Part shown: positions 36,680 to 38,132 of the stretch, piece after piece
Layout of the letters: the number at the start of each line of letters is the position of its first letter
Position numbering within the stretch: position 1 is the first letter of the stretch
Origin: Gemmatimonadota bacterium
Lineage (GTDB): Bacteria; Gemmatimonadota; Gemmatimonadetes; Longimicrobiales; RSA9
Length of the DNA stretch: 41,285 nucleotides
Direction of reading: 5' to 3'
Assembly (NCBI GenBank): GCA_017881445.1
Contig: JADGQX010000009.1
Location: 1-41,285, forward strand
Notes under the pieces: model-generated
Database searches by the model: none
What the model was told of the DNA's origin: nothing
The model's input: the letters and a program-made list of their open reading frames with translations, nothing else
Position numbers and translations under genes: made by a program

Positions 36680-37447
36680 GTGGGCGGCGTGGCCAGCGTG
36701 CGGGAAGAGCGGCGTCCCGGCGTGCTGCCGGTCTACGTCCACCCGGGCTGGGCAGCGCACTTCCCCTGGCTGGTCCAGGGCACCACCGCCCGGGGCGAGG
36801 CGGGCACCGCCTTTGATCTCCGCCTCTTCGGCGACACGCCTTCGGGCGAGGTCATCGACCGCTGGCTGCGGCTGCGGCACGAGCTGGGCGTGCCCCGCGC
36901 CGTCCACGCGCGCCAGGTCCACGGCACCGACATCCTGGTTCACGGCGCCGGTCCGACCGGGCTGCTGGTGTCGGAGCGCTTCGACGGCCACGCGACTACG
37001 AGTCCGGGCGTGCTGCTCTCGGTCTCGGTCGCCGACTGCGTCCCCATCTTCCTGGTCGCGCCCGACCCGCGTGTCATCGTCCTGCTGCACGGCGGCTGGC
37101 GGGGCGTGGCCGCCAGCATCCTCGAGCGGGGCGTGGCGCTGCTCCACCACCTGTCCGGCGCACCTGCCGGCGCGCTCTGGCTCCACCTCGGACCCGCCAT
37201 CTGCGGCCAGTGCTACGAGGTCGGTCCCGAGGTCTTCGACGCGCTGCGGCTTCCGGTGCCGTCGGCGCCCAAACCGCTCGACCTGCGCGCCGCACTCGCG
37301 GACCGCGCCCTCGGGCTGGGCATCCCCCCGGACCGGATCTCCATCTCCGGCTTCTGTACCCGGTGCGGTGATTCACCGTTCTTCTCCCACCGGGCCGGCT
37401 GCCGCGAGCGGCAGGTGGGGTTCCTCGCCGTCCTGCCCGGCGCGTGA
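36680..37447 (+). CDS. pgeF: Peptidoglycan editing factor / multicopper-like laccase-domain protein
   Basis: A 255-residue YfiH/PgeF-family protein. The zinc ligands are at His81 (ARQVHG), Cys120 (VADCVPI) and His137 (LLHGGWRG). In E. coli the family removes misincorporated L-Ser from peptidoglycan precursors, which suits the murA neighbourhood. Other members have purine-nucleoside or laccase-like activities, so this role is inferred. GTG 36680, with GGAG seven bases upstream, is chosen over GTG 36689 and 36698. It overlaps the next gene by 4 bases. Confidence 0.9.
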   Translation: MGGVASVREERRPGVLPVYVHPGWAAHFPWLVQGTTARGEAGTAFDLRLFGDTPSGEVIDRWLRLRHELGVPRAVHARQVHGTDILVHGAGPTGLLVSERFDGHATTSPGVLLSVSVADCVPIFLVAPDPRVIVLLHGGWRGVAASILERGVALLHHLSGAPAGALWLHLGPAICGQCYEVGPEVFDALRLPVPSAPKPLDLRAALADRALGLGIPPDRISISGFCTRCGDSPFFSHRAGCRERQVGFLAVLPGA

Positions 37448-37659
37448 GCCCCGCCCCGGACTTCGTGGGTCTCTGCGCCGGCTGCATGCACGCCCGCGTG
37501 GTCGAGAGTCGGCGCGGCTCGCGCTTCTGGCTCTGCGAGCTCTCCCGGATCGACCCGTCGTTCCCCCGCTACCCGCCCCTGCCCGTCCTGGCCTGCCGCG
37601 GCTTTCAACCCGCGCCCGCTCGGGCGGCGCCGGACACCCCGGAAAGGAGCAGCCAATGA
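37444..37659 (+). CDS. Small four-cysteine protein, likely zinc-binding
   Basis: This 71-residue protein overlaps pgeF (GTGA) and the OsmC-like gene (ATGA), so it is translationally coupled to both. Cysteines at 11, 14, 31 and 51 (CAGC, FWLCEL, VLACRGF) suggest one metal site. The segment RGSRFWLCELSRIDPSFPRY looks like a conserved short family that I have seen as hypothetical. I assign no function. Coupling to a redox protein gene hints at a related role. Confidence 0.75.
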   Translation: MSPAPDFVGLCAGCMHARVVESRRGSRFWLCELSRIDPSFPRYPPLPVLACRGFQPAPARAAPDTPERSSQ

Positions 37660-38132
37660 CCGAGCCTCTCTACGTGGCCCGCACCACCATCCGGAAGGTG
37701 AGCGGTGTCCGGCGCCGGGCGCACCTCCCGACCGGCGCCACCGCCGACATGGGGGTCCACGGCCCGATCCGCCGCCACTTCGACATCCAGGACGGGACTC
37801 CCGACCTGCCACTGCCCGTGGACTTCGTCGTCGCCGCCACCGGCGCCTGAATGCTGGGCACCCTGAGCGGCGCGCTGGATGCGCGCGGGATCCGGCTGGA
37901 CGGCGAGCACATCGGCGTGGAAGCGGAGGGCATCAACGAGCTGCGCGACGGCGTCATCGTGCTCACCCGCATCGACAGCCATTACCGGCTGCGCATCCCG
38001 GCGGATGCGCGCGAAAGGGTGGAGCGCGCCCTTGCGCGCCACCAGGAGAAGTGCCCCACGGCCCGCTCGCTGGCCGCCGCCGTGGCCATCGGCTGGAGCG
38101 CGGAGATCGAGGAGACCGCCCCCGGGCCATAA
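37656..38132 (+). CDS. OsmC-family protein, predicted selenoprotein (in-frame TGA = Sec65)
   Basis: The frame runs from ATG 37656 (AAGGAG seven bases upstream) to 37847, meets one TGA (37848-37850) and continues without a shift to a stop at 38132, 158 residues in all. Before the TGA is PLPVDFVVAATGA and after it MLGTLSGALDARGI. Together they form the OsmC helix whose redox cysteine falls exactly at the TGA. The second family cysteine is kept at 133 (EKCPTARSLAAA). OsmC proteins reduce peroxides with this pair. I therefore read TGA as selenocysteine. The alternatives are two separate genes (ATG 37851 directly follows), a nonsense mutation, or a TGC-to-TGA sequencing error. The selA, selB, selC and selD genes are not in the window. 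Confidence 0.75.
37870..37886 (+). promoter_or_regulatory. Candidate bacterial SECIS hairpin
   Basis: GCGCGC (37870-37875), loop TGGAT (37876-37880) and GCGCGC (37881-37886) form a 6-bp GC helix 19 bases after the TGA. The loop has G at its second position, 27 bases after the TGA. Bacterial SECIS elements are stem-loops inside the coding region with a G in the first two loop bases at about 16-37 bases, so it fits. GC-rich hairpins are common here, so this is support rather than proof. Confidence 0.55.

Follow-up and report, generated by a model that had tools for sequence, protein, structure and literature searches.

A gene of OsmC/Ohr type in the window analysed here (the whole stretch of DNA, 41,285 nucleotides; see Table 1) is almost certainly a selenoprotein gene, whose in-frame UGA at codon 65 would direct the insertion of selenocysteine (Sec); the position of the codon, the TGA-bearing homologues, the sel genes and tRNA-Sec of the genome and a covarying hairpin all support this reading, which had been put forward in the initial annotation of this DNA. 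According to the proposed mechanism, SelB loaded with Sec-tRNA-Sec would bind an mRNA hairpin 25 nt downstream of the UGA and deliver Sec at codon 65 in place of termination, the product being a protein of the OsmC/Ohr fold with Sec65 as the peroxidatic and Cys133 as the second redox residue. The gene occurs widely in Gemmatimonadota and in some other soil and marine lineages; it would extend a well-studied peroxidase fold by a Sec subfamily and supply a candidate selenium-dependent redox enzyme for largely uncultured bacteria.

Table 1. Position of the relevant features within the window.
Feature	Coordinates	Strand	Remarks and basis
pgeF-type gene, laccase domain PF02578	36716..37447 (start codon approximate)	+	Pfam 144 bits
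Small 4-Cys protein gene	37444..37658	+	GTG start; conserved directly upstream of the Sec gene
Putative OsmC-like selenoprotein gene	37656..38132	+	158 residues, predicted Sec at codon 65; TGA-as-Sec translation, PF02566, AlphaFold model, orthologues
Predicted Sec codon TGA, residue 65, peroxidatic-Cys position	37848..37850	+	Conservation in orthologues, alignment with 1ukk
SECIS-type hairpin	37870..37886	+	Stem 37870-37875 / 37881-37886 (6 bp), apical loop UGGAU 37876-37880
Cys133, second (resolving-type) cysteine, in EKCPTA	38052..38054	+	Alignments, 1ukk

Reading frame, redox positions and predicted fold

The frame opens with ATG, closes with TAA and contains one in-frame TGA only, that of codon 65. 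The initial annotation had described an OsmC-family frame interrupted by a single TGA, and its coordinates and residue number proved correct; when the TGA is read as Sec, the match to PF02566 (OsmC) runs across it (residues 48–146; E 1.5e-12), the 158-residue product scoring 48.2 bits and thus passing the family cut-off of 27.5 bits. On alignment with the Thermus OsmC protein 1ukk, residue 65 corresponds to the first Cys (AAAHAGC) and Cys133 to the second (EGCPVSRAL), so that the TGA does lie at the first redox Cys and the second Cys is intact, both as originally claimed; Cys133 is, moreover, invariant or nearly invariant across two alignments of relatives. The two redox positions of OsmC/Ohr proteins, peroxidatic and resolving, are therefore both represented, by the putative Sec65 and by Cys133, and the Sec motif of the subfamily reads U(M/L)LGT.

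The AlphaFold model, built with 54 relatives in the alignment, has a mean pLDDT of 94.6; its best Foldseek matches among the solved structures are all OsmC/Ohr proteins, with a target-normalised TM score up to 0.87 and a sequence identity of 12–21%. Within the predicted fold, the TGA codon falls in the central helix, comprising residues 54–76.

Selenocysteine machinery and the downstream hairpin

The genes whose presence had been proposed as a check of the Sec reading, selA, selB, selC (tRNA-Sec) and selD, are all found in the genome to which the window belongs, which is 99.6% complete: SelA is recovered at 541 bits, SelB at 298 bits (its C-terminal part being lost at a contig end), SelD at 378 bits (L158, G000:C59:3273-4199) and a tRNA-Sec with the anticodon UCA at 71 bits. 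This SelD is, by its own sequence, a selenoprotein, carrying an in-frame TGA in HGSGUACKLG that standard callers would mis-annotate.

The gene with one TGA is present in 30 of 61 genomes of relatives (the window's own included), and its distribution follows that of the machinery; SelA is found in 29 of the 30 genomes with the gene versus 8 of the 31 without it (Fisher p 4e-9, a value which is only indicative as related genomes are not independent), and a full tRNA-Sec in 29 of 30 versus 6 of 31. The two exceptional genomes, one without SelA and one without a full tRNA-Sec, are likely to reflect assembly gaps, since each of them has the other component.

A conserved in-frame TGA cannot by itself distinguish Sec from another residue, and the insertion of Cys by means of unusual tRNA-Sec-like tRNAs has been reported in some bacteria; the TGA might accordingly be an ordinary sense codon, read as Cys, Trp or some other residue owing to a changed code or a suppressor tRNA. 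Such a reading is nevertheless highly improbable, given that TGA acts as a normal stop within the window (that of pgeF at 37445-37447 and that of the small ORF at 37656-37658), that the tRNA identified fits the standard tRNA-Sec model, and that the genome contains the full Sec set, with SelA and a Sec-type SelD among its members.

The incorporation of Sec would rely on the hairpin located 25 nt after the UGA, which has a UGG-type loop and satisfies the constraints published for bacterial SECIS elements (bSECIS), namely a loop of 3–9 nt with G in the first two loop positions and then G or U, at 16–37 nt from the UGA (PMC13188914). The folding of single sequences gave no signal, the stability of the region not exceeding that of shuffles (z -0.2 to -0.9), as could be anticipated for DNA rich in GC, and the hairpin was for this reason analysed on the alignment. 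In 61 distinct sequences all of the 366 pair cells are standard pairs, with compensatory changes in two of the six pairs, compared to only 2 to 68% paired when the partner is shifted by 1–3 columns; RNAalifold independently recovers this stem together with one weak inner pair, while a search of the hairpin in Rfam returned no match. Not a single broken pair occurs in 117 sequences from both clades of the family (see below), the fifth pair alternating between A-U and G-C (10 or more changes) and the fourth between C-G and U-A (3 or more), on a tree in which few branches are well supported and with a sign test that is not significant alone, the pairs being too few.

The trace of this element is apparent in the coding sequence as well; synonymous variation across codons 71–79 amounts to 0.27 of its maximum, whereas the remainder of the gene stands at 0.65–0.68, and the fifth pair couples the silent position of Ala73 to the choice between Val and Ala at residue 76. 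In loci L091 and L093, Ala73/Val76 is replaced by Val73/Ala76, and in L186, L189 and L190, which belong to the second clade, GALEA is replaced by GVLEA; in both groups the partner base has changed too and the stem is kept. In these five loci the protein sequence seems to be under constraint from the hairpin, which offers a clear example from nature of an RNA structure influencing the choice of codon and, apparently, of amino acid (Ala73 and Val/Ala76 as a pair). Compared to bSECIS elements, it has the same small apical loop (G at position 2, then G), a 6-bp stem and a distance of 25 nt from the UGA, with no difference in kind, although its covariation is unusually clear and lies within coding sequence; as judged from the aligned sequences, it is a bacterial SECIS.

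Conservation of the TGA codon

The TGA and the hairpin behind it are kept in more than 100 related bacterial loci. In a collection of named bacterial and archaeal genomes, codon 65 is TGA in all of the best 80 of 469 stretches encoding relatives, and, judging by the record titles, most of these 80 loci are from Gemmatimonadota and some are labelled Acidobacteria, Eisenbacteria or others; within the phylum, a match is found in 119 of 395 genomes, and the TGA is present in all the strong matches among those listed. The weaker phylum matches, checked separately, carry the TGA down to 88 bits, and most of those below this value are ordinary OsmC proteins whose frames are open. In the alignments the protein sequence is conserved on either side of the TGA; the independently assembled genomes with TGA at codon 65 include single-contig ones, and the 30 genomes mentioned above comprise a second clade, 31–37% identical, where the TGA is likewise present.

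The expectation that homologues would have Cys or U aligned at position 65 is borne out: orthologues have the TGA and distant OsmC proteins have Cys, but a Cys orthologue of the subfamily was found neither in the 395 genomes of the phylum nor in plasmids. Since no Cys/Sec pairs were found among close relatives, support for the Sec reading comes from the conserved TGA together with the more distant Cys homologues.

The codon following the TGA is ATG in the window (TGAATG), and 37851-38132 can be called as an ORF of its own; routine callers would indeed, as anticipated, list it separately and split the gene in two. The TGA could on these grounds be thought to end one protein and the adjoining ATG to begin a second one, yielding two half-proteins; this has barely any probability, since only about half of the relatives have ATG as the next codon, the others having CTN, and since the break would split the central helix and leave the link to SelA and tRNA-Sec unexplained. 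An error of sequencing or assembly, or a nonsense mutation recently acquired by an ordinary OsmC gene, would agree with the fact that a single codon alone interrupts the frame, and is of negligible probability in view of the compensatory changes in the hairpin and of the same-codon TGA in all 80 of the independent named records (the best 80 of 469) and in all the listed strong phylum matches, which also uphold the initial view that a random nonsense mutation was unlikely; a chance TGA is excluded because every orthologue examined has TGA at this codon. A pseudogene was considered and rejected along with the error or nonsense mutation, on account of the conserved TGA and of the independently assembled genomes.

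Relationship to known OsmC proteins, predicted activity and gene neighbourhood

An OsmC-like selenoprotein was first reported in 2005 from the Sargasso Sea metagenome (Zhang 2005, PMC1088965), in agreement with what the initial annotation had said about marine metagenomes, and has been listed since with the motif UxxT (PMC2398784). In a search of the literature, OsmC-like selenoproteins were found only as this UxxT family, an earlier description of the present subfamily elsewhere being possible. The fold, the predicted Sec at the first redox Cys, the in-frame UGA and the downstream SECIS are common to the marine protein (and to NF041052, see below) and to the one described here, whereas the motif is UxxT in the former and U(M/L)LGT in the latter. 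The NCBIfam model NF041052 (OsmC_like_Se), which we take to represent the published UxxT or a similar family, has a curated cut-off of 95 bits that is reached neither by the Sec-OsmC protein (23.7 bits) nor by its relatives (20–25 bits), nor in any of 200 genomes of the phylum; an ordinary OsmC protein with Cys, encoded in the window's own genome, scores 64.7 bits, above the Sec-OsmC protein. Because this cut-off is not reached and the motif differs from UxxT, the protein would, on this evidence, constitute a separate Sec subfamily within a known kind, which the existing selenoprotein model misses and whose gene standard annotation cuts in two.

With the OsmC/Ohr thiol peroxidases (1ukk, 2onf, E. 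coli OsmC 1nye, Xylella Ohr) the protein has in common the fold and the two redox positions (65 and 133), but here Sec would replace the peroxidatic Cys and a Val occupies the position of the catalytic Glu. The latter residue is located in Ohr 10 residues before the Cys (Glu51 in Xylella Ohr; PMC5962072); in the alignments its position is taken by Val55, adjoined by the invariant Asp56, and peroxidase activity is for this reason not simply transferable from Ohr. Arg20, invariant in the alignments of relatives, may be the catalytic Arg (cf. Arg19 of Xylella Ohr). We consider it reasonably probable that the protein is a selenium-based peroxidase or reductase acting on an organic hydroperoxide or similar oxidant; in the catalytic cycle envisaged, Sec65 would be oxidised by such a substrate, a Sec65-Cys133 selenylsulfide would then form, and a cellular thiol would re-reduce it.

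The selenoprotein gene is probably the third of a single operon, preceded by pgeF and by the small 4-Cys gene. Adjacent frames overlap here, the GTG start of the small gene with the stop of pgeF, and its TGA stop with the ATG of the OsmC gene. Ahead of the Sec gene, the small 4-Cys gene recurs in 34 and pgeF in 30 of 110 loci, a set that includes some duplicates and some loci ended by contig ends. The small protein has the Cys pattern C-x2-C, C, C and no match in Pfam or NCBIfam, and is possibly a small zinc-binding protein. A conserved neighbourhood with MurA, RimP and NusA was also considered and discarded, being common to only two loci among the 80; the neighbours that do recur are pgeF and the small ORF. 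It may be proposed, tentatively, that the family is a Sec-only OsmC subfamily consisting of two clades, with the motif UxxGT, retention of Sec across its whole range, no Cys orthologue and a link to PgeF and the 4-Cys protein, in which the loss of the Glu would point to a non-classical reaction; if this is true, its chemistry differs from the classical reduction of organic hydroperoxides.

Another OsmC-type group, in which an in-frame TGA takes the place of the first redox Cys (e.g. GLGAUTSMTIALYARR), was observed in loci L173-L179 (genomes G172, G144, G120, G182, G119, G073 and G062), where a similar hairpin, TCGCGC-TGTAT-GCGCGA, follows the TGA; with NF041052 (cut-off 95) one member of the group reaches 58.7 bits, and the group may represent a third type of OsmC selenoprotein or a remote branch of the known type.
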